Part shown: one piece after another, positions 2,900 to 64,000 of the stretch | Layout: each line of letters starts with the position of its first letter | How positions within the stretch are numbered: position 1 is the stretch's first letter | DNA from: Protonemura montana | Taxonomy: Eukaryota > Arthropoda > Insecta > Plecoptera > Nemouridae | Length of the DNA: 64,000 bases | Reading direction: 5' to 3' | Assembly (NCBI GenBank): GCA_947568835.1 | Contig: OX387612.1 | Span: forward strand, 2,790,001 to 2,854,000 | Translations under genes and position numbers: made by a program | Notes under the pieces: generated by a model | The model's database searches: none | Told to the model about the DNA's origin: nothing | What the model saw: the letters and a program-made list of their open reading frames with translations, nothing else

Positions 2900-2949
2900 C
2901 TCTCAAGGCGCTTTACAAAACTGGAGAATCGATGAAAATTCACACAATT

Positions 2950-5137
2950 TCATACCTCCAATCTTCTCCCGAACAGAACTAGTCATGTGTATGATGGTCA
3001 CCCATCCAATACCTGACCTAGCGCAGTGTTGCTTAACTTTGATCCCTCCAACCTCTCTCCCGAACAGAACTGGTCATGTATATGATGGTCACCCATCCAA
3101 TACCTGACTCAGCGCAGTGTTGCTCAACTTTCATCTCTCCAACCTCTCTCCTGAACAGGACTGGTCATGTGTATGATGGTCACCCATCCAATACATGACC
3201 CAGCGCAGTGTTGCTTAACTTTCATCCCTCCAACCTCTCTCCCGAACAGAACTGGTCATGTGTATGATGGTCACCCATCCAATACCTGACTCAGCGCAGT
3301 GTTGCTCAACTTTCATCTCTCCAACCTCTCTCCTGAACAGGACTGGTCATGTGTATGATGGTCACCCATCCAATACCTGACTCAGCGCAGTGTTGCTCAA
3401 CTTTCATCCCTCCAACCTCTCTCCCGAACAGAACTGGTCATGTGTATGATGGTCACCCATCCAATACCTGACCCAGCGCAGTGTTGCTTAACTTTCATCC
3501 CTCCAACCTTTCTCCCGAACAGAACTGGTCATGTGTATGATGATCACCCATCCAATACCTGACTCAGCGCAGTGTTGCTTAACTTTCATCCCTCCAACCT
3601 CTCTCCCGAACAGAACTGGTCATGTGTATGATGGTCACCCATCCAATACCTGACTCAGCGCAGTGTTGCTCAACTTTCATCTCTCCAACCTCTCTCCTGA
3701 ACAGGACTGGTCATGTGTATGATGGTCACCCATCCAATACCTGACTCAGCGCAGTGTTGCTCAACTTTCATCCCTCCAACCTCTCTCCCGAACAGAACTG
3801 GTCATGTGTATGATGGTCACCCATCCAATACCTGACCCAGCGCAGTGTTGCTTAACTTTCATCCCTCCAACCTTTCTCCCGAACAGAACTGGTCATGTGT
3901 ATGATGATCACCCATCCAATACCTGACTCAGCGCAGTGTTGCTCAACTTTCATCCCTCCAACCTCTCTCCCGAACAGAACTGGTCATGTGTATGATGGTC
4001 ACCCATCCAATACCTGACCCAGCGCAGTGTTGCTTAACTTTCATCCCTCCAACCTTTCTCCCGAACAGAACTGGTCATGTGTATGATGATCACCCATCCA
4101 ATACCTGACTCAGCGCAGTGTTGCTTAACTTTCATCCCTCCAACCTCTCTCCCGAACAGAACTGGTCATGTGTATGATGGTCACCCATCCAATACCTGAC
4201 TCAGCGCAGTGTTGCTCAACTTTCATCTCTCCAACCTCTCTCCTGAACAGGACTGGTCATGTGTATGATGGTCACCCATCCAATACCTGACTCAGCGCAG
4301 TGTTGCTCAACTTTCATCTCTCCAACCTCTCTCCCGAACAGAACTGGTCATGTGTATGATGGTCACCCATCCAATACCTGACCCAGCGCAGTTTTGCTTA
4401 ACTTTCATCCCTCCAACCTTTCTCCCGAACAGAACTGGTCATGTGTATGATGATCACCCATCCAATACCTGACTCAGCGCAGTGTTGCTTAACTTTCATC
4501 CGTCTCCAACCTCTCTCCCGAACAGAACCGGTCATGTGTATGATGATCACCCGTCCAATACCTGACTCAGCGCAGTGTTGCTTAACTTCCATCCCTCCAA
4601 CCTCTCTCCCAAACAGAACCGGTCTTGTGTATGATGATCACCCATCCAATACCTGACCCAGCGCAGTGTTGCTTAACTTTCATCCGTCTCCAACCTCTCT
4701 CCCGAACAGAACCGGTCATGTGTATGATGATCACCCATCCAATACCTGACCCAGCGCAGTGTTGCTTAACTTTCATCCCTCCAACCTCTCTCCCGAACAG
4801 AACTGGTCATGTGTATGATGATCACCCATCCAATACCTGACCCAGCGCAGTGTTGCTTAACTTTCATCCCTCCAACCTCTCTCCCGAACAGAACTGGTCA
4901 TGTGTATGATGATCACCCATCCAATACCTGACCCAGCGCAGTGTTGCTTAACTTTCATCCCTCCAACCTCTCTCCCGAACAAAACTGGTCATGTGTATGA
5001 TGATCACCCATCCAATACCTGACTCAGCGCAGTGTTGCTTAACTTTCATCCGTCTCCAACCTCTCTCCCGAACAGAACCGGTCATGTGTATGATGGTCAC
5101 CCATCCAATACCTGACCCAGCGCAGTGTTGCTTAACG
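2950..5137 (-). repeat. 91-bp tandem array made of 5S-rRNA-like SINE heads, about 24 copies
   Basis: Read on the minus strand, each 91-bp unit holds AAGTTAAGCAACACTGCGCT and TATTGGATGGGTGACC, which match the A box and the intermediate-element/C-box region of the 5S rRNA internal promoter. A linker follows (CATACACATGACCAGTTCTG to GGAGGGATGA). The same head and linker occur in the dispersed 5S-derived SINEs at 15442, 42245, 43778 and 58405-58965. Here there is no SINE body and no 5' half of the 5S head. The right edge falls inside the GTTAAGCAAC box and the left edge just before it. A few units differ by a CGT insertion (near 4501, 4684 and 5051). Confidence 0.95.
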
Positions 5138-14218: not shown

Positions 14219-15441
14219 CCCTTGAAGAGGCTACATGACGCCACTGTACCGCCAATTCATTGACCGATTCAGAAACATAATTTTATGGTTATCGAAAAGG
14301 ATCTTTAAGCTTTCTGTACGTCACAAACCACACGCAGAAATTAAAACCACGATACATCCATGTGAATTGTAAAAACCATACGTTGAGATGACAAGAAAAT
14401 TTGGGCCGGCACTTCTAATACAAACTAAATAGGAAGATCATCTTAACATCGATTCTTGGATAGAACTATTCCATTTTCACTTTCCTTTCTCAAATTAAGC
14501 TTTTACGCACTTTCCATGCCAACAAGTGGCAAAACAATAGCTTGTTTTCACATAAGTCCTAGGCCGTTTCGATCCAGGTAAGATCCTTCGAAGCCAGGTA
14601 AGTTATTTGCATATGTAATTACAACATGCAATATGTCAATGATAATCACAGGCATTGTAAATAGTCAATAAATACACTTTTATAGGATAGGATAATATTT
14701 ACACGTGTAACATTAGGCAAAGTTGACATTTACAGACTCGTCGATGGTTTAAAATGTGTGTTGCACTAAAAATATCTCAAGTTCTTTCTTGGACGTGGCT
14801 CTGTAATTTACTAGTCCATCTATTTGTATCTAATTGTCCACAAATCCCGCAGAACTTCACCAGAAACTCGGAAGGAAAAGGTACAGTGAGCTCGGAATGT
14901 CACCCTCATTCGAATCTGAACAAACTAGAGCTCATTTAAATAAATACGGTACTTACAGCTCACACAAAATACTGCTTCAAATATAAAGAGAATGGGGAGT
15001 GGAAGATAAAGAAGTCCTCGGGTTTACCAGCAGCAAAAATACATAAAATAGCTTCGGGGTCTTACATTTTTGTCTTAACTACTACATGATATATATACAA
15101 TGATTCGAATTCAACAGCTTTAGATTGGCACATTTTTATTTAAAACAATAATATATATGATGACAATAATACTGTCTAAATAATATTACTGTCTTGATAA
15201 TTTGACCCCTGTGCAAACCCATCATAATACGAGAAAGGGGAACGACCTGTCACTGCCTAAACACAATCCTAATTTACTGACCAAAGGACCAAGGTATGCT
15301 GGTCGAAAAATTTTTAATGCGTAACCAGATTTTGTAAAGACTACAAGTTTTTAACTCATTTAAATGTACTTTAAAACGATTCATGTTGCAACACTGTTTT
15401 TATTCTACTGACGAGTTTTATCTGATTTGTAAAAACATTAC

Positions 15442-15893
15442 ACCGAACGGTTTGGCGTGTTGGAAACACCGGTTCTCGTTAGATCACCGAAGTTAAGCAA
15501 CACTGCGCTGGGTCAGGTATTGGATGGGTGACCACCATACACATGACCAGTTCTGTTCGGGAGAGAGGTTGGAGGGATGAAAGTTAGTACAGCAACTTCA
15601 TTCGCCTCGCTTATCAACCTCTCGACAGCATGGATTTGTGGAGGAATCCTGCTGTTCGAGTTGTACCGTCCTTCGGAAGGGACGTTAAGCCGGTGGTCCC
15701 CTTGGTGCTTTTCGACAGGAGTAGGGTACGTGCCGGCACCGGGTTTCCCCTCCTGCCATTCTAGACTAGGTTAGGTTCATCATCATCCTCATCATCATCC
15801 ACTCATTCACCGACGCCATTAGACCAGTGCCGCAGGGCCAGTTGTAAAAACAGTGCGTCGTTAAACACCACAAATAATAATAATAATAAAAAC
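15442..15893 (+). mobile_element. 5S-rRNA-derived SINE, complete single-head copy
   Basis: This is the cleanest copy. The 5S-like head (ACCGGTTCTCGTTAGATCAC, then GAAGTTAAGCAAC and TTGGATGGGTGACC) carries the Pol III internal promoter elements. The body contains a UUCG-type hairpin (GTCCTTCGGAAGGGAC) and TAAGCCGGTGGTCCCC. The 3' end is AACAGTGCGTCGTTAAACAC followed by (AAT)n. AAGTTA at 15490 in the head and AAGTTA at 15581 in the body are exactly 91 bp apart, the period of the head arrays. Confidence 0.9.
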
Positions 15894-16841
15894 ATTACAT
15901 TGTGAGTGTCTTCTGTTGTGTTATTTCATATGCTTTTTTATATCTATAAAGAGACTGTTTGACTGTCTTATATCTTCGGATCAAAGGGACAATAAAAAGT
16001 AAATAAATAAATAAAGTCATCAAATACAATTCAAATGCTTTAACAAAATCTTTCATGTTTACAAGCGATGGTTCCGTGAGGTCAGTGGTCATGGCCGATT
16101 ATAATCTGTAATTTGTGGAGATTATAATCAATCGCCCAGCATTTGCTTAACTTTGACGCGCGAAAACCATGAAAAACGAACGTCAGGGCGGGAACATTAT
16201 GCAGGCGAGCGATAAAGTCCTATGACTTGCAAATTAGGTCACATGAATCTCAAAGCATCTGAGGAAATCCTACTCTCCCTTATCTGCTATGATTTTACTT
16301 TGGTTTTATTTACCGCAATATTACATGTTCTCGGCGTAAGGCAAGCTAACCACAAAAAAACGCAACATGAGAGAAGACAAAACAAATTGGACATGAAAAC
16401 TAGAACAACAAATCAATCTAATTCTGGCGACCCTCAACGACAGACAAAGCGACAAAGAAACAACCATTCTACACCAAAACCTAAACAACCTACCTAACCA
16501 ATCAAAACTGAAGCACGAAACAACCTCTAATAAGAACCTACATCGACCAAAACTTGACAGGAAGTCCAATGGACAATGGACTTGTCCCCGAATTTGTCTT
16601 GACTTCTCTCATGTCACACAAATACAATAAGAATTGTTAATATTTCCCGAACTCGAGACGCAAACAGCCTCTGAACTGACGTGACGTTAATCCCCACAAA
16701 GCAAGCAATTTAGAGTAAAGTAAAGCTGAGAGCTAAGTGAAGATAATAATAATAATAATAATTGTTGTTTATTAACACGATTGGCCAAAGCATGAGTGTC
16801 GTCAAAATACAATAATACAATTAACTACAATACACCTACAA

Positions 16842-17719: not shown

Positions 17720-20700
17720 ATGTGTGTTCAGTCATTTGGAGCTAATATGCAAGTCATTGCAGTGACAACACTTCTCTACTTTGTTCTTTGCTCGTCTTGG
17801 AGTGAGTGGAATTCAAAACTGTAACAACAAAACTCGTTGTACGACTAACCATGCCGAGCTCTGCTCTTGTGCGGATTTCAAATACATTCTGTCAGCTAGA
17901 GGATCATACGGCGGGCAAAGAGCGGGGAAATTTTTCTTGCTATGAAGAAACAAAAGAGCTGTTAAAAATATTTGAAAAAGTCTAAACCACTAATCCTGCC
18001 ACGAGCCATTATTTAGCTTCTGTTTTCTCAAAATCTCGCCTCCTAGTTGAAGTGTTTGTTTAAACTATTGCCATGACGACTTCCAATCACATGCAGTGAA
18101 ATTCAGATGTTTCTGTGAGCTAGAGATCCAACTTATAGTTGAACATTTTGTTGAAACTGTTGTTATGACGACTTCCAATCACATGCAGTGAAATTCAGAT
18201 GTTTCTGTGAGCTAGAGATTCAACTTATAGTTGAACATTTTGTTGAACCTGTTACCATGACGACTTCCAATCACATGCAGTGAAATTCAGATGTTTCTGT
18301 GAGCTAGAGATCCAACTTATATTTCAACATTTTGTTGAAACTGTTGCCATGACGACTTCCAATCACATGCAGTGAAAGTCAGATGTTTCTGTGAGCTAGA
18401 GATCCAACTTATAGTTGAACATTTTGTTGAAACTGTTGTTATGACGACTTCCAATCACATGCAGTGAAATTCAGATGTTTCTGTGAGCTAGAGATTCAAC
18501 TTATAGTTGAACATTTTGTTGAAACTGTTACCATGACGACTTCCAATCACATGCAGTGAAATTCAGATGTTTCTGTGAGCTAGAGATCCAACTTATATTT
18601 CAACATTTTGTTGAAACTGTTGCCATGACGACTTCCAATCACATGCAGTGAAAGTCAGATGTTTCTGTGAGCTAGAGATCCAACTTATAGTTGAACATTT
18701 TGTTGAAACTGTTGTTATGACGACTTCCAATCACATGCAGTGAAATTCAGATGTTTCTGTGAGCTAGAGATTCAACTTATAGTTCAAAATTTTGTTGAAA
18801 CTGTTGCCATGACGACTTCCAATCACATGCAGTGAAATTCAGATGTTTCTGTGAGCCAGAGATCCAACTTATAGTTGAACATTTTGTTGAAACTGTTGCC
18901 ATGACGACTTCCAATCACATGCAGTGAAATTCAGATGTTTCTGTGAGCTAGAGATCCAACTTATAGTTGAACATTTTGTTGAAAATGTTGCCATGACGAC
19001 TTCCAATCACATGCAGTGAAAGTCAGATGTTTCTGTGAGCCAGAGATCCATCATGAGACTTCACCTAACATCATTTAAAATAATTTTTGTGATTTCCGTG
19101 TTGCAGATGTGACGTGTTTGGAACTGAAAATGACTCCAAAGTATTTACAAAGACCACCTATGAGTGAAGTCCATGCAACTTGCAAGACTGCGTCAAGTGA
19201 AGCGATCTCCAGTTGTCAGTTCCGCATCTGGTACAGTGGGAAGCAGGAGGGAGGAGAAATTGTGAACATTTATGCAGACAGCAAAGAGCCTGTCTCGATA
19301 AAGGATCCCTTTGCTGCCGACAAGTCTTACTTCACTGTCACGCCCGTTTCAACTAGCTTCAAGTCAGGATACTGCAATGTCAAGTTGAACAATGTGAAGG
19401 GTGGACAACTGCTGGTCGGCTGCAAGCTTACCACCGCATCCAATGTCACTGCAGTCAAGACAACTGCACTCTTCTTCACAGGTATTTTGAAAGCAAAAAA
19501 CGTCACGATGCAAACATGCACGTGGTCTAAATGTTTACACGTGTTGAAGCAAGGGGCTGGTCTGGGTTTACTTTGTTTCTTTAGAGACATGGCGAGTTGG
19601 GGTTTATTCTTTATTGTTTATTAGTTTACACAGCGTTTATTGTTCATTGGCCTTCACAAAAAATATCTATTGGGGCAAATTGTTTTTCACTGCGGAGCTT
19701 ATTAAGTCAAAAATGTGTTCCAAAAAGTGACAAACCTAGCTACGTTAAGTATTTTACATTTAAAATTATATTGCCTCACATTTGTCAATTTGTCAATTTT
19801 TATACCATGAGCATGATCATGATGTACCATCATTAATTGATCTCAACCATAATATTTCACTTATTTTTTGTAATACTAAATCTTATCAAACAATTTTATT
19901 ATTAACAACACTATAACCGTCTCAAAAATTGATGCCCAAACGCGGACACGAACCTCGATCTCCATCTATCGCGGGTGTTGCTCTGAACCATTGAGCTATT
20001 TGGACACTGGCTTTTTGAGACGATTTTAGTGTATTTGATGAGAATGACGGATCTCCAAGGAGTAGAACTAAGAGGCTGTGAATACTCACAGTCACTCTGA
20101 TTCTAGCGATGCTATATCACGTCACAACCTGTCAAACTCGAGTAACTCCATTTTGACTTTGGATTCGTTGCTGAATTAAGATGAAATCCTATTTAAATTG
20201 CAAACGCTTGCAATATACGGGATATTTTATTATTATCAACACTATAACCGTCTCAAAAATTGATGCCCAAACCGAAAATTGATGCCCAAAATTTTTGAGA
20301 TGGTTATAGTGTTGTTAATAATAAAATACCCCGCGCATTGCAAGCGTTTGCAATTTAAATAAGAGTTCATCCTAATTTATCAAACAATTATTTCATGACA
20401 AAAATTTTGAAAGGAAATTTTACTTGTTTTATTTCCAGACAAATTCGAAATTAGTCTGCGTAACAACAGCGAAGAAATGCACGTGAAACTCGGCGACGAC
20501 GTGAGCTTTGAGTTGGAGGCTGTTAGCAAATCTAAGTTAAGCAAGTGCACCATGAAGGTGAATGGCTGGTATGTGAATGTCAACACTTCAGATCTTGCGA
20601 CCGCCGAGAACCCAAAGACCGTTGCCGAGCGTTACCAGGCGTGGCTTGCTGGCAACAAGTGTGGATACAAGATTCCACACGTGACCGAATCAGACCAACG

Positions 20701-35108: not shown

Positions 35109-38100
35109 TTACAGCTGGCCGCAGTCGACGACGATGATCTTCTTCGAAGTCTTGCCGCTCTGCGAGCCGTACGATTCCAGCTGAAATCAGAAACGCCGTC
35201 AGAATTCCCGTCGGCGACTCGTTTCCGTTCTTCGGATTCCTGCACTGATGCGTCGTTTCCTTCGCGTTCTTAGAATCCACTGCCGTTGCAGAATTTTAAA
35301 ACATACGCACGTTACCACCGCCAGGGCAGTCATAAACAAAGAGCTAAATAATCATTAAATGCCAGAAAGGTTTCATTGCTCAATTGTTGGCCAACTTCTA
35401 CTAAATTATCCTCCAATCACGTTGATTAATTGCTAGCATTCACGAAAAACACTTTTTTAAATCTCAGATTCAATATTATTTCCAGTAATGCAAATAGGGT
35501 GCCACAAGGACGATAACTTAGTAAGTCAAGTTAGTAATATATTACTAGCTAGCTTCAGGTTAGGACCTAGTAAAATAGCTGATACAGCACATTACCACCC
35601 CCATTGAAAAAGGCAGATGGCCACGAGTTAGCCATCTGTAAAAGTGGTTCTAGTTCTGGAAATTCTGCCAGGCATCAGATTGAGTTGTCAATTCAGTTGA
35701 TTTGTAATGTGCCAAAAGGCTCAGATAACAAAAATGATGATTTGTAATGTGCCAAAAGGCTGGGATAACAAATACGTTTATTTGTAATGTGCCAAAGTGC
35801 TGGGATAGCAAGAATACGTTGATTTGTAATGTGCCAAAGTGCTGGGATAACAAGAATACGTTGAGTTGTAATGTGCCAAAGTGCTGGGATAACAAGAATA
35901 TGCTGAATTGTAATGTGCCAAATTGCTGGGATAACAAATATGTTGATTTATACGATCAGGAAAGTAAAAAAGAGGGTACGGAACTAACTAAGCAAGAGTG
36001 GCAGACCGCGATAGTGGATAGCTCTTTGTTAACGTTTCAGCTGTTAGCTTTATCGCAAGTATCCACTATCGCGGCCTGCCACTCAGCGCTTGGTAAGTTC
36101 CGCACTATCGCTTTACTTTCCCAATCAACAAATCGGATGTCAGTTCGGCGACGTACCTTCTTCACGACGTCCATGCCCTCGACGACGGCGCCGAACACGA
36201 CGTGGCGGTTGTCCAGCCAGCTGGTCTTGGCCGTCGTGATGAAAAACTGGCTTCCGTTGGTGTTGGGACCGGCGTTGGCCATCGACATGATTCCAGGACC
36301 GGTGTGCTGGAGACAAAAATATAGGTCACGTTGTCAAATTTAATTTTACTGGAAATACCTTTAAGGACGTGACGTGGTATAGCGTCACTAGAATCAGAGT
36401 GACTGTGAGTATTCACAGCCTCGTGGCGCTACTCCTTGGAGAACTGTCATTCTCATCAAATACACTGAAATCGTCTCAAAAAGCCAGTGTCCAGATAGCT
36501 CAATGGTTCAGAGCAACACCCGCGATGGGTGGAGATCGGGGTTCGAAACCCCGTTTGGGCATCAATTTTTAAGAGGTTAATAGTGTTCTTATAATAAAAT
36601 ACAAGGTTAATCGATCAGCCTCGTTCCATGAAGATTTCTTTGACTGCTTGCGACTCTTGGCACCTAACTGGCAGCAGCATCCAATATGTCAACTACATTC
36701 GATGGATGATTTCGATTTTTTTTTGTATTTTCAATAATTTCAGATCAGACTTATTTTTTATTGTAAATAACTTGAGAGCAAGGCTTTAAAGACATCATTT
36801 TGAAGCATTTGTAACACCTGGCGTATTGTCACGCCTTCAATGATTATCTCAAAGCGTAACTTATTTTATTATCGGCTGTGTTGATCTCTGAACAATCATG
36901 CATTATTTTGCTTCATAACTATCTTCAAATTATGTGATTATCTTTTATTGTTTGAATTATGTCTAATCTACTCTGAACAACCATTTATTTCTACTGTCAT
37001 TAGTTAGTACCGTTGAGTGTAGGTTATAGGTAGAGAAACAACGTCAATGTTAAAGTCTCTGCGTGAAAGATGGCCGCCAAATGACTACCTTACCGACAAA
37101 AATGCAGAGTACCGGAAGTTTCTGTTAAGTAGAGCCACTGTAACATGAAATTTAATTTTGATATTTATCGTAGGTTACTCGCTTATGAATATCGTTACAT
37201 GTATATCAATCGTTGAGGTAAACATTGATGAAGATTTTTTGAGCATGAAAAGTCTCAAAAGCGAGTAACCTACGAGAAATATCGAAATTAAAATTCATAC
37301 GACAGTGGCTCCACTTAACGCGATTGTCCGGTACTCTGCATTTTTGTCGGTAAGGTAGTCATTTTTCACGCAGAGACATTGACATTGAAACTCTACCTAT
37401 AACCTACACTCAACGTTAGTACTGTTAAATTGAAATGTACACCAATATCATAATATATTGACAGGAAAGTGATGCCGTTTCAAGCAATATAAAATATATT
37501 ACGTCCATTCAGTTAGCAGGAAGTGGTAAAATCTGATTACGCCAGAGAGAACTAAAGAACGACCCAACAAATGCATGGCATTAACAATAGGCAGTTTCCA
37601 CCGACATTCCAAACAGGATTATAATACGCATGTGTTTTATGGTTTCCCCCAAAAATAAATCTCTCATAGTAAGATTAAAAATTGCCTGGCCTACACACTT
37701 GGACCTTGACCTTAATTCCTTTAAAGCCAAAATCCCTTAAACCTAGAAAAGTTTTAGACCACCAAGTTTTAATGGAAATAAATCAGCTGGGCAGTTGCCA
37801 AAATAGCATAAAGCAAGTAAAGAAATCGGCGATAAAGTTTTAGATCTGGCATAAAAAAAAGCGTTCACATACATTAAAACCTACAACCCAACGGCTATTC
37901 TGAGATTTTGATTGATCGCTTTCAATTGATACACTTGCATTTGTTCCATTGTCCTTTTTGCCAACAATGGCAGGTCATTGATAAGCGGTCGTCGATACCG
38001 AAATAGTTTCTTAGAATCAGCTAACTGCTATTTAATTGAAGAGGAGAACTGAATGGAGAGCAATGGAACGAAAGAAATCAAAATAGTCTTTTATAAACAA

Positions 38101-40375: not shown

Positions 40376-43300
40376 ATGTCCCATTACGGCAATGCTGCGA
40401 AAAACAACCCACCGTGGGTTCGTTCTGCGCAGCAACCGATGCCAACGGGAGTTGCACCACAACACATGCAGACTCAGATGATGAATCAGGCTATGGGACA
40501 GAACGCTATGAATCCAGCTGTCATGGTACAGTACCAACAACAGCAACAACAACAGCAACAGCAGCAACAGCAGCAACAGCAAGTTTACCAACAAATGCAA
40601 CAGCAACAGCCGATGCAGCAGGTAATAATATTGAATCTAGATTAGTACCTCACAGATCTTGAATGGGACTTGCATATGATTTTTTTGCTACATTATGTTT
40701 TTCATTCAACAGACGATGTCCATGTCAGGAATGGGTGGGATGACAGCTGCTATGTCTCCAATGAATCAAGGATTATATCCTCAAGTTGCCACTGTAAGCT
40801 ACCCGACACCTCGAGCTTTAAATCCGTCGGCATTTCAGTCTCCTCAACAGCAGGTGAGCTTCTTTGTTCGTTTTGTTTGAAGAAACTCCAAACGTAACCT
40901 ATAAATGTTAAGTCGTAACATTTTGACTGGCTTTTGAGCAGACAGAATCAAATTGTCAAGGATGTTAGATGGATTGTGGATCGGGTTGAAAAAGTTCTTA
41001 TTTATATCATTTATATTTGGGGAAGTCTTGTTATGTGTTCGGGAGAGAGGTTGGAGGGATGAAAGTTAATACAGCAACTTGATTCGCCTTGCTTATCAAC
41101 CTCTCGACAGCATGGATTTGTGGAGGAATCCTGCTTTTTGAATTGTTCCGTTCTTCGGAAGGGACGTTAAGCCGGTGGTCCCCTTGGTGCTCTTCGACAG
41201 TAGTAGGCTACGTGCTGGCACCGGATTTCCCCTCCTCCCTTCTAGGCTAGGTTAGGTTCATCATCATCCTCTCACTCACGGATGCCATTTGACCAGTGCC
41301 GCATGACCAGATGTCAAAACAGTGCATCGTTAAACACCACAAAATAATAATAGTCTTGTTATGCTTTTAGCGACTGATGAATGTTTTTATTCCAGTTGAC
41401 ACCGCAGCCAGTAACGCCAGTCGCAACGAATCCTTCGTCGAAACAGCGAGTCTTTACCGGAACTGTGACGAAAGTCCACGACAACTTCGGCTTCGTCGAC
41501 GAAGACGTGTTCTTTCAATCCAGGTGAGAGATTTTAGGAACTTTACCTACGGATACTTATTTTTAAATTGGATACCATGAATACCAAAAGGATGTTAGAG
41601 TAGCTTGGGTGTATATTTTATTGTGTAAAATAATGTGTTCTGATAAGTTATACTAACAAGTAATGAAAATATTTGCTGTTTCTCTATCAAAAACCTGGAA
41701 AAAAAATGAAAAAATTCTCTCTGATGGTTTTTAGACTCATGTCTACTTGATTTATCCTTAGCACTAGTTTTTGCTAAAAGAATTCTCTCTTTTCAGCAGT
41801 TTTTTGCTGTATTTACTTAAACCTCAAATTTCTTTTGTTGTACTAGATTGCTTACTTTATGTAATAAATAATTGTTTTATGGACAGAGCTCTGATTCACT
41901 CTTTTTAATTATTTTCATCAATAAAAAAACTCGTTTAGCTTTGTACAAAGTGTCGGAAAAATTCAACTTACAAAACTGGTACGATTCTCAACAAAAAAGA
42001 AAATGTGTAAATCTTGTTATGGGTGGGAAAACCTGGGTGATTTTTCTGAAAGAACGCAGGGGGATAAAGTTAAGAACATGTTAAATCGGTAGGTTAAAGT
42101 TAACAACAGTATGACAAAGAAATTAGCTGATTTTCCTACCCCAAAACGATAGGAAAATATTCACTTCATTTTTTATACAAAGTTACAAACCTCTTCTATC
42201 CAAAGCAAAACCGTAGAACATTTCACATCATAACTTGACTCAGAAATGGAAACACCGGTTCTCATGAGATCACCGAAGTTAAGCAACACTGCGCTGAGTC
42301 AGGTATTGGATGGGTGACCATCATACACATGACCAGTTCTGTTCGGGAGAGAGGTTGGAGGGATGAAAGTTAAGCAACACTGCGCTGAGTCAGGTATTGG
42401 ATGGGTGACCATCATACACATGACCAGTTATGTTCGGGAGAGAGGTTGAAGGGATGAAAGTTTGTACAGCAACTTCACTCGTCTTGCTTATCAACCTCTC
42501 GACAGCATAGATTTGTGGAGGAATCCTGTTGTGCGCGTTGTACCGTCCTTCGGAAGGGACGTTAAGCTGGTGGTCTCCTTGGTGCTCTTCGACAGGAGTA
42601 GGCTACGTGCCGGCTTCGGGTTTCCCCTCCTCCCTTCTAGGCTAGGTTAGGTCCCTCAACATTATCCACTCATTCACTGACACCATTAAACCAGTGCTAC
42701 AAGGCCAGATGTCAAAACAGTGCGTCGTTAAACACCACAAATAATAATAATTGACTCAGAAAACCAGCGTGCAACCAAACTATTGGGGTTTATTTGATCA
42801 ACATCAGGCTTCAACTCGGTTTACACTCAAGATTTAATTTAAATCTCGAGTGTAAACCAAGAACAACAAGAAAATATTGTCACAAATTTTTTTTTTCATG
42901 AATTAAAATCACATTTAAATAAAAATTACAATCTTTTGTTGAGCTTTCAAACCTTTCAAAATAACAAAAAATCCATAACAACCTTTTTTTTTTTAACTAA
43001 GTTTAAGCTTAAAAACTATTTGAAATGGGTTTTGAATGCTAATTAAGAAATAACTAACTTTCCCAACATTTCATAACTTGTACCTGTAACTTCTTCAAGG
43101 GCAAGTTACTTACCCTTGATGAAATAACATACAAGTTACGTAACGTTTTGTTCTTTACTTTGCATTCAAACCCCATTTCAAATAGTTTTTGCCAAAACTA
43201 GTGCTAAGTTTAGACAAAGTAGACATGAGTCTAAAAACAATCATAAATTAAAGCTTGACTTTATTGAAATCAATTATTGAACAAGTATCTAAACCTTAAG

Positions 43301-46300
43301 AAAAACTTTTTGAACTGGGTTTTGAATGCTTAGTAAAGGGATTTCAGAAATGAGAATTTCTGTTAAAGATTTCTCTTTACTTAGCATCCAAAACCCAGTT
43401 AAAACTAGTGCTAAGGATAAATCAAGTAGACGTTAGTCTAAAAACTATCTAAACCTTGTTTCTAAACCCCACCAGCTGCTGCGTGAAGGGTTCCAACCCA
43501 GTGGTGGGCGATCGTGTGCTCGTCGAGGCTTCGTTCAACCCGCAGATGCCGTTCAAGTGGAACGCGACCAGGATCCAGGTGCTGCCGATGGCGGGCGGAC
43601 CTCGTATCTCGAGCAACATGACACCGAAGACACCCGGCGGGTACAACGCAGTACCTCCACCCTGTGAGTCAACATCAACATTTGCTTAACTCTCATTAAC
43701 CGTTCAGTTAAAGGTGGATTATATCTACGTTCGGCTCAACTTAAATATACAAATCTATGGCAAAAGCCCACTCTACCGAACGGTTTGGTGTGTTGAAAAC
43801 ACCGGTTCTCGTTAGATCACCGAAGTTAAGCAACACTGCGCTGGGTCAGGTATTAGATGGGTGACCATCATACACATGACCAGTTCTGTTCGGGAGAGAG
43901 GTTGGAGGGATGAAAGTTAAGCAACACTGCGCTGGGTCAGGTATTGGATGGGTGACCATCATACACATGACCAGTTCTGTTCGGGAGAGAGGTTGGAGGG
44001 ATGAAAGTTAGTACAGCAACTTCACTCGCCTTGCTTATCAACCTCTCGACAGCATGGATTTGTGGAGGAATCCTGTTGTTCGCGTTGTACCGTCCTTCGG
44101 AAGGGACGTTAAGTCGGTGGTCCCCTTGGTCTTTGACAGGAGTAGGCTACGTGCCGGCACCGGGTTTCCCCTCCTCCCTTCTAAGCTAGGTTAGGTTCAT
44201 CATCGTCAACTCATTCACCGACGCCATTAGACCAGTGCCGCATGGCGCGTTGTCAAAACAGTGCGTCGTTAAACAACACAAATAAATAAAAAAAATAACT
44301 CACCGAAACAGCGCAAGCAAACTTTTTAAAACCTGTTTTACGTGGACCCCGCAGCCGACAACTCGAACAACTACTCGAGCAACGGCCGCGGACAGAAACG
44401 CGGTCGCCGCGACGATCGCAAGGATCGACCGGCGCGCGACGAGGACGACGACGCGGATCGCAAGCGTCGCCGCGACGATCGGCAGAAGGAACGCGACGAG
44501 AAGGACAAGGAGAAGACGGCAGCGTCGTCGACGTCGCGCAAGCGGAGCAAGAGTCCGCGGCCGGCGCGGAGGAGGGCGCGCGCGGCGCCGCGGTACATGG
44601 TGCAGATACCGAAGATTGCATTGGATTTGTGAGTACCGCTGAAAAGCATTGCATTTCGTGACGTCATTTTCATGTTACGAACTTTGTGGCTTTAAGAAAA
44701 ACTATTTGAACTGGGTTTTGAATGCAAAGTAAAGAACTACTAAATTTACTAAATTTATAATTTACTTCTAAATATATTAAATTATAGTCTATGATATGTT
44801 ACATTACGTTATGTTGTGGCTACTAAATTATAGTACTGGAAAATTAGTTGTCCTTTACTTAGCATTCAAAACCCAGTTCAAATAGTTTTTCTTAAAACTA
44901 GTGCTAAAGTTACATCAAGTAGACATGAGTCTAAAAACTATCAGAAGTTTGTGGCTATGTTGATTGGGAAAGTTAAGGGGGAGTACAGAACTTATTGAGC
45001 GTGGATAGATCTTTGTTAATGTTTCGGGCTTTTGCCGTTATCACCGGAGAGAGGAGAATTTCTTTTATTTATATTATTTGATTTCTTTCCACAAGATAGA
45101 GCTAAACATGCGAGTTGTGGTATTTTTTAATTTTTTTTTTATTATAAAATTTATTTTCATACTTAGGCATGGTACATGTTCTTATGCAAGTTCTTAGAGT
45201 AATAGCGTTGAGTGTAAATAAAAAAATCGACATCTAGAATCCGGCGTCCCCGACTCCGCCCCCTTTCAACGTCTTGCTCCGCCCCCCCCCGCAGGCCTGA
45301 GGCCGACGTGCTGGAACTCCGTCGCCGCTACGCCAACATGTACGTGCCGTCCGACTTCTTCTGCACCAACTTCCGCTGGGTGGACGCGTTCCCGCCGAAC
45401 AGCCCGTTCTCGCTGGACCGGCCGTGCGCGTTCCACGTTCTGCACAAGGATGTGGAACGGGTCGGCGACGTCGGGGCCTCGAGCGCGTCCGTCGACCCAC
45501 CGGATGCAGACTACCTCTTCTCCGCAAAGGTACATATCTCCACACTCAATTCTGTTATCTTATGTTACCACGGGTATATCATGGCCTAGCATAGGAGGTT
45601 CAATGATAGATTCAATGTTTGGTAGCCATGGAGATGCTGAGATCGCCTGACAGAGCTTCTCAATCCTGCTATCTTATGTTACCACGGGTATATCATGGCC
45701 TAGCATAGGAGGTTCAATGGTAGATTCAATGTTTGGTAGCCATGGAGATGCTGAGATCACCTGACAGAGCTTCTCAATTCTGCTATCTTATGTTACCACG
45801 GGTATATCATGGCTTAGTATAGGAGGTTCAATGGTAGATTCAACGTTTGGTAGCTATGGAGATGCTGAGATCACCTGACAGAGCTTCTCAATTCTGCTAT
45901 CTTATGTTACCACGGGTATATCATGACCTAGCATAGGAGGTTCAATGGTAGATTGAACGTTTGGTAGCCATGGAGATGCTGAGATCGCCTGACAGAGCTT
46001 GTCAATTCTGCTATCTTATGTTACCACGGGTATATCATGGCCTAGCATAGGAGGTTCAATGTTAGATTCAACGTTTGGTAGCCATGGAGATGCTGAGATC
46101 GCCTTACAGAGCTTCTCAATTCTGCTATCTTATGTTACCACGAGTATATCATGGCCTAGCATATGAGGTTCAATGGTAGATGAAGTTGACTGCCCGCCAA
46201 GCCTAACCCCCACTCGATGCCCGCCAAGCCTAACCTCCACCCAATGCCCGCCAGGTGATGCTGATCAGCATGCCCGCCATGGAAGAGGTCTACCGCAAGT

Positions 46301-52300: not shown

Positions 52301-55300
52301 GGAGCAGCCAACACAGTGTGTCAAAGTGACAAGGCTAAGCAGTGGCCGGTCCTTGGTGCTGTTGGACAGGAGCAGCCAACACAGTGTGTCAAAGTGACAA
52401 GGCTAAGTGGTGGCCAGTCCTTGGTGCTGTTGGACAGGAGCAGCCAACACAGTGTGTCAAAGTGACGAGGCTAAGCGGTGGCCGGTCCTTGGTGCTGTTG
52501 GACAGGAGCAGCCAACACAGTGTGTCAAAGTGACAAGGCTAAGCAGTGGCCGGTCCTTGGTGCTGTTGGACAGGAGCAGCCAACACAGTGTGTCAAAGTG
52601 ACAAGGCTAAGCGGTGGCCGGTCCTTGGTGCTGTTGGACAGGACCAGCCAAAACAGTGTGTCAAAGAGACAAGGCTAAGCGGTGGCCGGTCCTTGGTGCT
52701 GTTGGACAGGAGCAGCCAACACAGTGTGTCAAAGTGACAAAGCTAAGCGGTGACCGGTCCTTGGTGCTGTTGGACAAGAGCAGCCAACACAGTGTGTCAA
52801 AGGGACAAGGCTAAGCGGTGGCACCTGTTAACATGATTGTCTGCACAGGTGGGAGAACTGCGACAAGAGCTGGCCGCTCGTTCGTTGAACGCCAAGGGGC
52901 TGAAGACGCAGCTCCTAGCGCGACTGACCAAGGTGCTCAAGTCGGAGGCGGCCAAGGAGAATGAGGAAGTGGAGGACGAGGAGGAGGTTAAAACGGACGA
53001 CCCGGAGACGCCGGTCAAACAGGAATCAGAGGAGAAAGACGACGAGAAGACCAAGAAAGATGTGAGTTTGGAACTCTTATAACCTGTAAATTATTTGTGC
53101 CCAAACGGGGATCTCTGCCTGACCAATGCTACGTGGCCCGCTGTCAAAACAGGGCAACGTTAAACTCAAAAAATGAACCAAATGGGTCGGTGTTTCTCAA
53201 TCTTTTGACATCTGCATACCCCTCCTAGAATTTTTATTACAACGAGCACCTCTAGCTAAAGAAAAAAATTGCAGATCGGTCGTTTTATGTGAAATATACA
53301 CAAAAACAAAAATGAACCCTAACTAAATTTGAACATTAAAAACTGTAAGCCATTAAAGATTAAAAAAAACCAACGAATCGATCTGTGCTTTCAGGACGAG
53401 GAGAAGAAGAAGGCGGAGGAGAAGGAACGTCTGATTCGTGAGAAGCGCTACGCGTTGCCTGAAACACCGCACCTCCTGGTGCACCCGTCGCGCACAGCCA
53501 AGGGCGGCAAGTTCGACTGCACGGTCATGTCGCTGTCGTTGCTGCTTGACTACAGGTGGGCAATGCGCGGAGTATTTTATTTTTAGGAACACTAACAACC
53601 TCTCAAATATTGATGTCCAAATGGGGACTGGAACCCCGATCTCCACCTGTCGCGGGTGTTGCTCTAACCAATTGAGCTACTTAGACCCCGATCTCCACCT
53701 GTCGTGGGCGTTGCTCTGACCAATTGAGCTACTTGGACCTCGATCTCCACCTGTTGCAGGTGTTGCTCTAAACCATTGAGCTACTTGGACACCTAATTTG
53801 TTGATAGGATCTTAGTGCATTTGATGAGAATGACTAATTTAAAGGTAAAAGTAAGTTATTATGGACTAGGACTGTCTAAATTTATCAAACCTTGGCACTA
53901 GTTTAAAAATAAAAATGGCTACTAAGTTTTGAATGCACAGTAAGAAATGTAATTTTCCCTATGTTTTGCAACTCATGCCCGTTACTTCATCAAGGGTAAA
54001 AGCATCTGCGACATTTCTTAATTTACAAAAGAATTGAATCGGTAACAAAACGTCTCGGCTATGGTTAGTAAACCCAGTGTAAAAACGTTGCCTCTGTAAC
54101 GACTGCAAAGAATTGGCAACAGAAGGTGGTTTCGGGAGACGATTGGCGGTGACGTTGTTGAACGTACGAGCTTGTTTCAGAACCGAGGACACGAAGGAGC
54201 ACTCGTTCGAAGTGTCGCTGTTTGCCGAGCTGTTTAACGAGATGCTGACGCGAGACTACGGCTTCCGAATCTACCGAGCTTTGCACGCCGCGCCAGAGCC
54301 ACCCAAAGAGGAGGTGCGTAGAACTGGCAACGTCGTTGCAGACCTATCTTTCAACAGATTTCCTGGCCGCATTGTTTTTTATTATTTTAGTAAATTTTAT
54401 TATTATTGCGACCAGGAAAGGTGACGAAAGATTGGTCTGTTTCTTGACATTAGCACTCTCATTACGCTACTTTGTTCTCCATGTAATTCACGTCGCTGAT
54501 TAGCGTAAAAATGTGTTCGTAAGTAGCCTGCAGTTTTTTGACAGGATGGAATAGCGAAATCTCATTAAGATTATTATTTAATTATTATCATTGTGTTCAA
54601 ATACGCATTTAAAATAAAATCTGAGGTATTTTTTCTTTTTATAATCCGATCATAACTTTTCTATTTATATTTGTTTTAAGAATGGCTAAAATATGAATTC
54701 TAGTGGCGGGATTAAAACGGGCTGTGATTAACTACACGTAGTTCTGACGTCATTTTGTTGTATCCTTTGCATTCGCTTCTGTTTCTTGACGTCATACTGA
54801 CGTCAGATTTCACTTCATGTCATAAAAAATGGCGACCCTCGTTTTCGTACGAGATTCAAACGCAAACATTTTAAACAGAGATATTTTATTCAAAATTGGA
54901 TTTAGAAGAAAATAAAAAAAAAAACGTGTTCATTATTTTCTCACAAGAAAAAAAAATAGTTTCAAATTTAAAGAGATTTCCCTATTCTTGCAAAAGGTAA
55001 AATTTCCCCAAAATTTCCTCAGGGTTATAACAAACTTGCTGCAATAAGAAGAAGATTTGGCGCTGGGACATGCACTAAAATCCATTAATATTACACTGAA
55101 TCTTTCATTCAAGCTTGCCGGTCATAGATTTGGTCAGACGAATTCAAATGTAGCAGTTTAATTAGAGAAACAATCAATAAGGTATCTAATTGTAATGCAT
55201 GAGAACTTTTGCCAAACAACATTTCCATTTTTACGTAGAGTTGAGCGCTCGCACATGGAAATGTTATAAATAAAGGAGGTCAGTGCTCTACAACGATTAT

Positions 55301-58300
55301 CACTGTACAAAGTTTGTGTCAAATAAATTTAAAAAATTTAAAAAAATCTGCATGGATCTTTCCTCTCGAGAGAAGAGTTTCCTGGTTTGCAATTATTAAA
55401 ATATCATTGTCTCAAAGCAAATTACCACGTCAGTTAAAATCAAACCTAAACGGCGTTGCTGAAATCGGCCGAGAAGAGAAGGTTTGCAATGGACGGAAGG
55501 AATTCAGCTGGATTCCGTGGTTTTCTCACCGTGCTGTTTTTGATATTACAGCCCGGCTGGGATTGAGAACGATTACATTTCTGTGACTGAATTTCGTTCC
55601 TCTTTTCGCAGCCCAAAAAAGATAAGGAACGAGATAAGAAGGGAGACAAGAAAGATGACAAAGACAAAGATAAGAAGAAGGACGACAAGGAGAAGAAAGA
55701 CGACAAGTCTTCGAGCAAAGAGAAGGAGGAGAAGTCGAAGGTCGAAGAGAAGGAAGACGACGACGAAGACGATGATGATGAAGACGTGAGTTTAATCAGG
55801 TTTTAATCGATGCTTAAACGTGGACTGGAATCTCGATCTCCACCTGTCGCGGTTGTTGCTCTAACCAATTGAGCTACTTGGACCCCGATCTCCGCCTGCC
55901 GCGGGTGTTGCTCTAACCAATTGAGCTACTTGGACCCCGATCTCCACCTGTCGCGGGTGTTGCTCTAACCAATTGAGCTACTTGGACCCCGATCTCCACC
56001 TGTCGCGGGTGTTGCTCTAACCAATTGAGCTACTTGGACCCCGATCTCCACCTGTCGCGGGTGTTGCTCTAACCAATTGAGCTACTTGAACCCCGATCTC
56101 CACCTGTCGCGGGTGTTGCTCTAACCAATTGAGCTACTTGGACCCCGATCTCCACCTGTCGCGGGTGTTGCTCTAACCAATTGAGCTACTTGGACCCCGA
56201 TCTCCACCTGTCGCGGGTGTTGCTCTAACCAATTGAGCTACTTGAACCCCGATCTCCACCTGTCGTGTGTGTTGCTCTAAACAATTGAGCTACTTGAACC
56301 CCGATCTCCACCTGTCGCGGGTGTTGCTCTAACCAATTGAGCTACTTGGACCCCGATCTCCACCTGTCGCGGGTGTTGCTCTAACCAATTGAGCTACTTG
56401 GACCCCAATCTCCACCTGTCGCGGGTGTTGCTCTAACCAATTGAGCTACTTGGACCCCGATCTCCACCTGTTGCGGGTGTTGCTCTAACCAATTGAGCTA
56501 CTTGGACCCCAATCTCCACCTGTCGCGGGTGTTGCTCTAACCAATTGAGCTACTTGGACCCCGCTCTTCACCTGTCGCGGGTGTTGCTCTAACCAATTGA
56601 GCTACTTGAACCCCGATCTCCACCTGTCGCGGGTGTTGCTCTAACCAATTGAGCTACTTGGACCCCGATCTCCACCTGTCGCGGGTGTTGCTCTAACCAA
56701 TTGAGCTACTTGAACCCCGATCTCCACCTGTCGTGTGTGTTGCTCTAAACAATTGAGCTACTTGAACCCCGATCTCCACCTGTCGCGGGTGTTGCTCTAA
56801 CCAATTGAGCTACTTGGACCCCGATCTCCACCTGTCGCGGGTGTTGCTCTAACCAATTGAGCTACTTGGACCCCAATCTCCACCTGTCGCGGGTGTTGCT
56901 CTAACCAATTGAGCTACTTGGACCCCGATCTCCACCTGTTGCGGGTGTTGCTCTAACCAATTGAGCTACTTGGACCCCGATCTCCACCTGTCGCGGGTGT
57001 TGCTCTAACCAATTGAGCTACTTGGACCCCAATCTCCACCTGTCGCGGGTGTTGCTCTAACCAATTGAGCTACTTGGACCCCGATCTCCACCTGTTGCGG
57101 GTGTTGCTCTAACCAATTGAGCTACTTGGACCCCGATCTCCACCTGTCGCGGGTGTTGCTCTAACCAATTGAACTACTTGGACCCCGATCTCCGCCTGTC
57201 GCGGGTGTTGCTCTAACCAATTGAGCTACTTGGACCCCGATCTCCACCTGTCGCGGGTGTTGCTCTAACCAATTGAGCTACTTGGACCCCGATCTCCACC
57301 TGTCGCGGGTGTTACTCTAACCAATTGAGCTACTTGGACCCCGATCTCCGCCTGTCGCGGGTGTTGCTCTAACCAATTGAGCTACTTGGACCCTGATCTC
57401 CACCTATTGTGGGTGTTGCTCTAACCAATTGAACTACTTGGACCCCGATCTCCACCTGTCGCGGGTGTTGCTCTAACCAATTGAGCTACTTGGACCCCGA
57501 TATCCACCTGTCGCAGGTGTTGCTCTAACCAATTGAGCTACTTGGACACTTCATTTGTTGAGACGATTTTAGTGTATTTGATGAGAATGACAGGCCTCCA
57601 AGGAGTAGAACCAAGAGGCTGTGAATACTCACAGTCACTCTGATTCTAGTGACGCTATATCACGTCACAACCTGTCAAACTCGAGTAACTCCAATTTGAT
57701 GTTGGATGTGATTGTTTTTAGACTCATGTCTACTTGATGTAATCTTAGCACTAGTTTTAACAAAAACTATTTCAACTGGGTTTTGAATGCTAAGTGAAGG
57801 GCTACTAAATTTCCCGACGTTTCGTAACATATACTAGTTACTTTATCAAGGGTTAGAGCAGTCCTGACAATTTTCCGATAACAAAAGAACCACACAAAAT
57901 TATAACAATCACCTAGTTCAAGCTTCCTAAATTCATCTAAATAAATTAATAATCAGGGTCAATAACTCAAAAACTTATATATTTTGTATTTTCTGAAATG
58001 TAATACGCATAGTGGAATCAGTGGCCGGGAAGAATCAGATGCTTATATTGGAAAAGCAACTTGAATCCCGATCTATATCTTTATGATCCTTTATAATAAA
58101 ACGACGATGTATGCTCGTGATTTTATCGAATCCACGTTGATTTCTCCGAACTTTTCACACGCTTCTTGTTCGCAGGAGGATGACGACACGAAAAGCACCA
58201 AGTCCAAGGACAAGGAGGACAAGGACAAGAAACGTGACAAGGACAAGAAGAAGAAGGATCGACCCAAGCTGGTGACGGAAGACCCGCACCTGTTGCTGTC

Positions 58301-58404
58301 GTTTGTCTACTTCGACCAATCGCACTGCGGCTACATCTTCGACAAGGACGTCGAGGAGCTGTTGTTCACACTCGGGCTAAATCTGTCGCGGGCGCAGGTA
58401 ATGA

Positions 58405-58441
<37 letters not shown>

Positions 58442-61400
58442 TGTTGTGTTTAACGACGCACTGTTTTGACATCTGGTCATGCGGCACTGGTCTAATGGCG
58501 TCGGTGAATGAGTGGATGATGATGAGGATGATGATGAACCTAACCTAGCCTAGAAGGGAGGAGGGGAAACCCGGTGCCGGCACGTAGCCTACTCGTGTTG
58601 AAGACCAAGGGGACCACCGGCTTAACGTCCCTTCCAAAGGACGGTACAACGCGAACAACAGGATTCCTCCACAAATCCATGCTGTCGAGAGGTTGATAAG
58701 CAAGGCGAGTGAAGTTGCTGTACTAACTTTCATCCCTCCAACCTCTCTCCCGAACAGAACTGGTCATGTGTATGATGGTCACCCATCCAATACCTGACTC
58801 AGCGCAGTGTTGCTTAAATTGTATCCCTCCAACCTCTCTCCCGAACAGAACTGGTCATGTGTATGATGGTCACCCATCCAATACCTGACTCAGCGCAGTG
58901 TTGCTTAACTTCGGTGATCTCACGAGAACTGGTGTTTCCAACAAGGCCAAACCGTTCGGTAGGTAATGATTATAATCGCTGGAGAGAATGGGCACTTCTC
59001 TAATAAAGGCAACAGCCGGAAAGGTAACAAAGAATTTTTACCATCGCGGGCTGCCACTGCCGCTCGGTAAATTATGTAATCTCCTGTTACTTTCCCAATC
59101 AACATATTTGTTAAATATTCTTAACATTATAAATAAAAACAACCATGTTAATATGTTCTAGTTTTAGGCTTAGGGAGGCTTAGCTTAGCTTAGCATAGCA
59201 AAAGGACAGACCCAATGAAACTTTTTAGAAAAAATCCAAAATAGTTTTTGTTTGTTTTGCAAGCTGTTGATCTAATGCTTCAATGACCAAGCTTCAATTT
59301 TACATACCCCAAAAAAAAGACATTTCGAACTTTAGCGGCTAGACGCCTGCTCTAAGATGAACCAAATTTTCAGAGCACATTTGTTGTTTCTTAACTCAGA
59401 CCTGCTGTGTTTTTGAGAAAAATCTGTCAAATAATTTTGGAATTATTCAAAATTTACAGACAATTTTCATGTTTTATTAATTACCTTTTTGGAGTCGATA
59501 ATATACAGACGCATTGTTGTTGAAATTTACTGAATTTTTTTGGCAACGACGAAATTTTTGAGATTTTAGATACTCTTTTTGTAGTTTGATAACCATTTTC
59601 ATGACAAGGTTTTTACAAATTTAAACGGAAATACCGTAAAAAGCATGCGGGGCTCGCCTTTTCAAAGAAAAATACAGGATTAAAGATCGAAACAAGCTCT
59701 GTTCAAATGCATTACAAAGCTTTAAATATGAATAATTTGCTCTCTGAGTACGTGCGCTGTGGCTTTTGTAAATCCACAGCGAGGAATCTTGTTCGTCCGG
59801 TCACGTCGATGTGTTTTTGTTTTCTAGGTTCGTAAGCTCGTGCAGAAAGTGGTGACTCGAGACTCTCTGCACTACCACAAGCTCACCGACAAGCCCCAGG
59901 TCGAGATCAAGGAGGTACAGACACTGGCCTAGCATAGGAGGTTCAATGGTAGATTCAACGTTTGGTAGCCATGGAGATGCTGAGATCGCCTGACAGAGCT
60001 TCTCAATTCTGCTATCTTATGTTACCACGGGTATATCATGGCCTAGCATAGGAGGTTCAATGGTAGATTCAACGTTTGGTAGCCATGGAGATGCTGAGAT
60101 CACCTGACAGAGCTCAATTCTGCTATCTTATGTTACCACGGGTATATCATGGCCTAGCATAGGAGGTACAATGGTAGATTCAACGTTTGGTAGCCATGGA
60201 GATGCTGAGATCGCCTGACAGAGCTTCTCAATTCTGCTATCTTATGTTACCACGGGTATATCATGACCTAGCATAGGAGGTTCAATGGTAGATTCAACGT
60301 TTGGTAGCCATGGAGATGCTGAGACCGCCTGACAGAGCTTCTCAATTCTGCTATCTTATGTTACCACGGGTATATCATGGCCTAGCATAGGAGGTACAAT
60401 GGTAGATTCAACGTTTGGTAGCCATGGAGATGCTGAGATCGCCTGACAGAGCTTCTCAATTCTGCTATCTTATGTTACCACGGGTATATCATGGCCTAGA
60501 ATAGGAGGTTCAATGGTAGATTCAAAGTTTGGTAGCCATGGAGATGTTGAGATCACCTGACAGAGCTTCTCAATTCTGCTATCTTATGTTACCACGGGTA
60601 TATCATAGTCTAGCATAGGAGTTTCAATGGTAGATTCAACGTTTGGTAGCCATGAAGATGCTGTGATCGCCTGACAGAGGTCAATGTTTCTTGCCAGATC
60701 AAGGACAAGGACGCCGCTGAAAAGGAGTCTGCAGACGCCCCCGAGGTTCCGGCTGCTTCCGAGGATGCGGAGAGCCTCGAGAGTCTTGCGTTCGGCAACA
60801 AGCGTCTGCTGCCGGCCTTCAATCTCGCCGGGCCCGCGTCAAAACGAGCTCGGAAGTCACCGGGAGACGGTGACGACGTAGTTTTGCCTGACGGTGAGCG
60901 AAACTTTTTGATCCTCGGCTTCATGATCGTGCTCGACAGAGTTGGCAGTAACGTTTCCTAACTTTTTCCTCAGAATAATTGTTTTGAGTATTTTATTAGT
61001 GACTCCACAAAACTTGAGAATAAAGCCATGCAAACAGATTTGCTTTAGTGAATAACAAAAACTATTTGAAATGGGTTTTGAATGCTAAGTAAAGGACAAC
61101 TAAAATTTAAAGTAAAGGAAATTTTAGTTGTCCTTTACTTAGCATTCAAAACCCATTTCAAATAGTTTTTCTTAAAACTAGTGCTAAGGATAAATCAAGT
61201 CAGTAGATCCTCCTAACAGCGGAGTGGGGAGACACATGAATCACTCAGACTCGCTGTCAGTAGATCCTCCTAACAGTGGAGTGGGGAGACCCATGAATCA
61301 CTCAGACGCGCTGTCAGTAGATCCTCCTAACAGCGGAGTGGGGAGACCCATGAATCGCTCAGACGCGCTGTCAGTAGATCCTCCTTACAGCGGAGTGGGG

Positions 61401-63774: not shown

Positions 63775-64000
63775 AAATCTGATTTAAATTGTGAACGCTT
63801 GCAATTTGCAGGGTATTTTATTATTATCAACACTATGACAGTCTCAAAAATTGATGCCCAAACGGGGACTCGAACCCCGATCTCCACCTATCGCGGGTGT
63901 CGCTCTAACCAATTGAGCTACTTGGACCCCGATCTCCACCTGTCACGGGTGTTGCTCTAACCCATTGAGCTACTTGGACCCCGATCTCCACCTGTCGCGG
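63775..64000 (-). mobile_element. tRNA-like SINE with head array, cut by the window edge
   Basis: The antisense tail (GTGAACGCTTGCAATTTGCA to TTGATGCCCAAACGGGG) and an intact B box (GGGGTTCGAGTCCCC on the minus strand) are followed by at least two full 52-bp A-box units and the start of a third. The array continues past the right edge. Confidence 0.9.

Follow-up and report, generated by a model that had tools for sequence, protein, structure and literature searches.

A 91-bp 5S-derived head repeat in Protonemura montana: a probable dispersed SINE-derived satellite at several stages of growth

How does the head of a short interspersed element (SINE) come to stand 24 times in tandem with no body attached? 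The question is raised by a locus of the plecopteran Protonemura montana, in a window comprising the 64,000 nucleotides analysed here (GenBank assembly GCA_947568835.1, contig OX387612.1, positions 2,790,001 to 2,854,000). An array of 24 SINE-head units occupies 2948..5136 on the minus strand, as delimited by TRF, by BLAST units and by block repeats of units. Run on the window, TRF returned a period of 91, 24.0 copies and 95% matches, in agreement with the original prediction of about 24 copies at a 91-bp period. In BLAST searches with the parts of the SINE, the array showed no body and no 5S 5′ half that could be recognised, and no SINE terminus was seen in the flanks read. By its composition, the array is best described as a bare ladder, a SINE-derived satellite (sSat).

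The junction word AAGTTAAGCAAC is exact in 14 of the 24 units, with AAGTTGAGCAAC in 8 others, and the junction is mutated in a two-head copy at 58 kb, so the expectation of an identical junction in each case did not hold. Units 10-13 are identical one by one to units 16-19, as are units 16-17 to 20-21, and the best lag of 6 units lies above all shuffles (0/2000). We favour, at a probability of about 0.65, the reading that this is a dispersed SINE-derived satellite caught at several growth stages.

The SINE and its copies in the window

A single-head 5S-SINE lies at 15442..15893 (+), recognised by Rfam and BLAST and flanked by the target-site duplication (TSD) TAAAAACATTACA at 15430-15442 and 15887-15899. 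Its head matches the Rfam 5S_rRNA model RF00001 at 15442-15562 (+) with 70.1 bits against a gathering score of 38; the same model scores 65.8 bits at 43775 (+) and 54.6 bits at 58959 (-). This score, together with an alignment to the 5S gene of this genome, of which three copies were read, establishes that the head is homologous to 5S rRNA. True 5S rRNA genes lie near a contig start (C11:70-105743) in groups of three (+, +, - as listed), with a repeat of about 9.5 kb at first.

For BLAST, the SINE was split into the 5S 5′ half (48 bp), the 91-bp unit and the body (313 bp). The unit starts at position 49 of the 5S gene, which we take to be the start of the A box, so that each unit would hold the A box and intermediate element, together with the first part of the C box. 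The prediction that every unit keeps these elements, with part of the C box, stands to the extent that these box positions are right. In the single-head copy, the head box AAGTTAAGCAAC (15490..15501, +, 5S position 49 onward) and the body box AAGTTAGTACAGCAAC (15581..15596, +) are exactly 91 bp apart, as had been predicted.

The window holds four further copies. A 5′-truncated SINE at 41036..41352 (+), identified by BLAST, starts at unit position 65 and has a TSD at 41024-41035 and 41352-41363. Three copies carry two heads. The first, at 42247..42751 (+), is truncated in the 5′ part of its head and flanked by TTGACTCAGAAA at 42235-42246 and 42751-42762. The second, at 43775..44298 (+), has units that differ by 1.1% and an Rfam 5S match at 43775-43895; no clear TSD was found for it by the test used here. 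The third, at 58422..58960 (-), has a TSD at 58396-58405 and 58961-58970; its junction box is mutated (ACAATTTAAGCAAC) and the junction reads GGGATACAATTTAAGCAAC. TRF reports two-copy 91-bp repeats at 42276, 43823 and 58732. The predicted 91-bp spacing of the doubled heads was recovered by BLAST, with unit starts at 42276/42367, 43823/43914 and, on the minus strand, 58911/58820. Many 5S-SINE copies end in AAT-type tails.

The order of events could in principle be reversed, the SINE having captured its head from a pre-existing 5S-derived satellite. Arrays without a body exist, as in the window, and would suit this order. The 5S 5′ half, however, is present in SINEs and missing from the 91-bp unit, and single-head copies look older (see below), though they were sampled in other regions. 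A satellite-first origin is thus very unlikely.

Other tandem repeats share the window. A 92-bp array at 18044-19050 (TRF) was not matched by any of the SINE parts in BLAST. Arrays at 48747-50760 (41-bp) and 52295-52822 (68-bp) have units that recur on another contig beside SINE arrays; words of the 41-bp unit occur in loci L055 and L060 and a word of the 68-bp unit in L052/L053, which makes them dispersed minisatellite families. Dispersed arrays are also formed by a 26-bp unit shared by 22882-24088 and 28045-28960 and by a 114-bp unit shared by 45545-46181 and 59925-60679 (TRF).

Junctions across the genome

Across the 258-Mb genome, AAGTTAAGCAAC occurs 29,524 times, against 67 for a reversed control word, and a chance repeat is rejected on this count. 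At 91 bp each, these boxes amount to about 1% of the genome. Exact junctions number 16,704 for unit to unit at 91 bp, 4,459 for head to body and 4,048 for 5′ starts, with 92-bp repeats counted among the last.

Two further junction types occur. The 92-bp type (849 exact, genome-wide) lies outside the AAGTTA box and joins 5S position ~95 to the 5′ end of the SINE (GACCACC followed by GAACGG), with the joint at ACC; the exact SINE 5′ end (ACC) here meets the interior of the C box. The 95-bp type uses the other half of the box: AGCAAC in place of AAGTTA would yield AAGTTAGTACAGCAACACTG, and the 22-letter form was found 7 times, on six contigs. In a de-duplicated sample, 197 unit-unit spacings were 91 bp and 11 were 89, 90 or 93 bp, beside 7 of the 95-bp type, which was specifically searched for, and 16 unit-to-5′-end junctions. 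An exclusive 91-bp rule is rejected by the 92-bp and 95-bp junctions. The original prediction had tied all multi-head copies to a 91-bp period and the AAGTTA junction, naming any other period or junction as counter-evidence, and it is contradicted by these 849 and 7 cases. The AAGTTA box is the joining site of most head copies.

The locus sample covers mostly the first 6.3 Mb of one contig: L001-L069 lie on C1 (0.06-6.3 Mb) and L070-L076 on six contigs. Overlaps were removed first by sequence, leaving 59 elements with a near-complete unit, and then by genome coordinate, which took 108 elements to 74, 58 of them with a near-complete unit, and 253 units; key counts were barely altered between the two procedures. 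L018 and L061 are the two ends of one long array and were counted as two.

Multi-head copies are common. Searches with patterns of 115 letters, allowing 3 mismatches at most, found 538 single heads as against 1,169 first heads in multi-head copies; for exact matches the figures were 10 and 59 (Fisher p 0.0014). Among 54 sampled elements with a body start, counting units longer than 70 bp, 22 had 0-1 head units, 12 had two, 4 had three and 16 had 4-16. The element is thus repeated in part, as seen by TRF and BLAST, and in 32 of these 54 elements the SINE end is attached to at least two units, both of which are features of sSats. Two body starts were found in none of the 74 sampled 5S-family elements. 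The idea that bare arrays start and end exactly at the box is weakened by other flanks: several arrays begin within an eroded or deleted head, or stop elsewhere in the unit.

In the reading that we favour, a first step would have duplicated the promoter segment of a host-5S-derived head (from 5S position 49 through the end of the head and some 20 bp beyond). One such duplication or a few, at the 6-bp box common to head and body, would have produced two-head SINEs. The box and the junctions are observed directly. That the founders were few and were copied often is what we infer from the use of the two box halves (16,704 versus 7), since roughly equal use would perhaps be expected had each junction arisen afresh.

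The same imbalance bears on the proposal that extra heads are gained in place, SINE by SINE, through slippage or unequal recombination between the head and body boxes. Use of the other half at 7 places on 6 contigs suits repeated local events, but the ratio of 16,704 to 7 and the 849 junctions of the 92-bp type do not. LINE enzymes are able to jump templates, and jumping of the reverse transcriptase at insertion offers another route: the cDNA would re-pair with the body box or, for the 92-bp class, the enzyme would jump from the 5′ end of the RNA to a site within it. The 92-bp junction, at which the exact SINE 5′ end (ACC) is joined inside the C box, suits such a jump. Template jumping could also have made the founder junctions, and to that extent it is compatible with the preferred explanation. 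As an account of the whole system we consider it rather doubtful, because it leaves the block repeats of the window array, the body-less arrays and the locus L074 (below) unexplained.

A second, unrelated family in the window also carries repeated heads. A single-head tRNA-derived element at 36489..36561 (+) serves for comparison. TRF finds an element with 3 head units at period 52 (53614..53790, -), an array of 33.0 copies at period 52 (55834..57547, -) and another period-52 array that leaves the window end (63855..64000, -). Ladder growth is thus not confined to the 5S box. Their junction, GGGGT followed by CCAAGTAGC, was counted 6,847 times as an exact 32-letter word, against 672 for the normal head end as a 25-letter word. 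Matches are listed from C1 first, and the 100 junctions among those listed all lie there: 37 fall at 0.5-1.4 Mb, another 13 at 19.0-28.9 Mb and the remaining 50 at 30.7-31.8 Mb, on a contig of 33.1 Mb. A conserved leader beginning GTCATTCTCATCAAAT lies upstream of the tRNA part at 36440, 53840 and 57580, which is unusual for a plain tRNA SINE.

Retrotransposition and growth in place

Insertion by retrotransposition leaves its trace in many copies, in the form of TSDs and repeat tails. The TSD test was applied to copies with a complete body and reached a score of at least 8 in 1.6% of 2,162 mispaired controls. Of 47 complete copies, 22 scored at least 8: 12/20 with 0-1 heads, 6/14 with 2-3 heads and 4/13 with at least 4 heads.

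The direct case for the insertion of a multi-head RNA is a single locus, L011. It consists of a partial unit from position 53, seven complete units and the body, with a perfect 14-bp duplication, AAACACTGGACTCC, on both sides. A one-head RNA cannot give a start in mid-unit followed by further complete units, so L011 would record the insertion of a multi-head RNA. As far as the sequence can tell, at least one multi-head RNA was retrotransposed, barring later gene conversion at this copy, and others suggest the same. L024 is a weaker second case, with a start at unit position 12, eight complete units and a TSD score of 7. For L014, L023 and L070, which start inside or at a unit, the same test found no TSD. 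In the favoured reading, a second step would thus have multi-head SINEs transcribed and retrotransposed as such.

Growth in place is evident at another locus. The last two units of L074 share the private changes G78A and A91C, a combination seen in none of the 248 other units sampled, and they are joined at the alternative (AGCAAC-half) junction. This arrangement clearly points to a duplication that took place at the locus itself, between the box of the head and that of the body. At L061, similarity is graded by the distance between units (0/2000 shuffles), and a significant unit order was found in 2 of the 12 arrays tested, with none in the other 10. A third step would then follow, in which the 91-bp homology permits in-register gain and loss of units by unequal exchange or slippage, as seen at single loci, with the original body box still used occasionally.

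L074 is exactly the event that gain SINE by SINE envisages, and units are slightly closer within loci than between them. Their distances were 0.049 within and 0.054 between loci for SINEs with 2-3 heads (p 0.013, n=14) and 0.049 and 0.053 for those with at least 4 heads (p 0.011, n=16), a difference of only about 10%. Across 21 loci with at least 4 units, the corresponding differences were 4.4% and 5.3%, a weak form of the within-locus uniformity of sSats. The slight closeness fits both inheritance and early in-place duplication after insertion; as it cannot separate the two, it is not used as proof of either.

Unit column 22 gives a similarly divided picture. In SINEs with 2-3 heads, first and last unit agree at this column in 11 of 16 cases (7.2 expected, p 0.056), which leans towards in-place duplication; all five discordant SINEs have A first and G last, and this suggests an inherited A-G pair. 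Among SINEs with at least 4 heads, agreement is found in 10 of 16, just the number expected (10.0), and the six discordant cases split three each way.

By their bodies, single-head copies look older. The 30 multi-head bodies diverge by 4.3% from the consensus, compared with 6.5% for the 20 single-head bodies. The nearest neighbour of a body agrees with its head class in 33 of 50 cases (p 0.023), a modest effect, and no single body column that separates the classes survives correction for 64 tests.

Regional clustering also speaks for local gain: among loci found by the head-to-body pattern, 13/16 at C1 0.27-1.79 Mb are multi-head, against 0/14 at 2.6-6.3 Mb. However, L011 was multi-head at insertion, unless altered later by gene conversion, and together with the 92-bp class it partly refutes the view that all extra heads arose in place; as a general explanation this view is unlikely. 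The originally predicted slippage or recombination between the two boxes thus holds for L074 and for the box as the main joining site, but is not the whole story, given L011, the 92-bp class and the ratio of 16,704 to 7. We read the combined evidence as a mixture, in which a few founder duplications would have been inherited by retrotransposition while local gain and loss continued.

Chromosomal position, function and related satellites

Contig ends are taken here as chromosome ends, and on this basis the repeats show the subtelomeric preference of sSats. The outer 4 Mb of contigs contain 54 of 59 exact multi-head copies and 37 of 61 single-head copies (0-1 mismatch), with 36% expected over 11 contigs; the cut of 4 Mb was chosen after the data were seen. 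The distances of the two classes, compared at 0 mismatch for multi-head and 0-1 mismatch for single-head places, differ with p 0.018 overall and p 0.107 on contigs over 17 Mb. Inner multi-head copies exist, for example at C1:19362995. The fourth stage of the preferred explanation concerns position: ladders are most frequent in the outermost few Mb of contigs, and some, without a SINE body, form bare arrays such as that of the window.

No host function would be required for this course, and each unit would be a potential Pol III promoter by descent. That the array is instead kept for a function, as a TFIIIA decoy or a source of Pol III transcripts, might be argued from the 5S internal promoter region retained in every unit and from the single TTTT on the sense strand across its 24 units. 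TTTT is the stop signal of Pol III. The promoter columns, however, show no greater conservation than the rest of the unit: over 193 units, non-CpG divergence was 2.2% in the promoter and 2.1% elsewhere with column 22 omitted (p 0.93), and 3.0% and 2.1% when it was included (p 0.94). On these figures, conservation of the promoter is rejected as a sign of function, and copy number varies widely by locus. The predicted TFIIIA decoy is left without support, since promoter columns diverge as much as the others, and maintenance for a function is scarcely credible.

Squamate genomes are far larger than the 258 Mb of genome here. The closest published case found is that of the SINE-derived satellites of squamate reptiles (Vassetzky, Kosushkin and Ryskov 2023, PMC10702118). 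As described there, sSats are likewise tandem repeats of part of a SINE, often with the SINE end on one side; they originated separately in several SINE families and prefer subtelomeric positions, longer arrays are more uniform, and unit variants alternate in some loci. The squamate SINEs are tRNA-related, whereas the head here is derived from 5S. The present case differs further in that multi-head copies are common and at least one was probably retrotransposed as such, in the identified junction boxes and in the parallel in a second element. The same source calls the restriction of sSats to squamates uncertain.

Other systems resemble parts of this one. The PcP190 satellite of frogs (PMC11675491 and others) also contains a 5S-rRNA-like region, but its unit is ~190 bp, of which 120 bp are 5S-like; the abstract, whose opening mentions no SINE, links it to the transcribed part of 5S rDNA. 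Cassandra, described as carrying a 5S promoter sequence (PMC10853983), is a mobile element that also occurs in tandem arrays in plants (PMC7215508); it is an LTR element, however, and by the title of that report whole elements stand in tandem, not a SINE head. Duplicated SINE parts are known from Alu dimers, tandem Dip multimers and SINEs with short internal duplications (PMC10702118), and the Alu parts are retrotransposed together. These are fixed dimers, whole multimers or duplications of ~30 nt, in contrast to ladders of 2 to over 20 promoter units. The phrase "SINE-derived satellite" is used once in a 2025 review (PMC12692304). No published 5S-SINE satellite was found in the open-licence literature, which is weak evidence of novelty.

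A wider interpretation can be offered tentatively, and we would not rely on it. Head number may behave as a heritable, replicating trait: multi-promoter SINEs would be the younger and more successful ones, multiplication would be favoured in retrotransposition, and the trait would have arisen in parallel in two unrelated Pol III-headed elements, in which only the head is multiplied.

Accounts of how mobile elements give rise to satellites usually argue back from end points. In this genome, a series from one head to two heads, ladders and bare arrays is present in two unrelated elements. Because junctions identify single events, the shares of retrotransposition and of in-place recombination are measurable.
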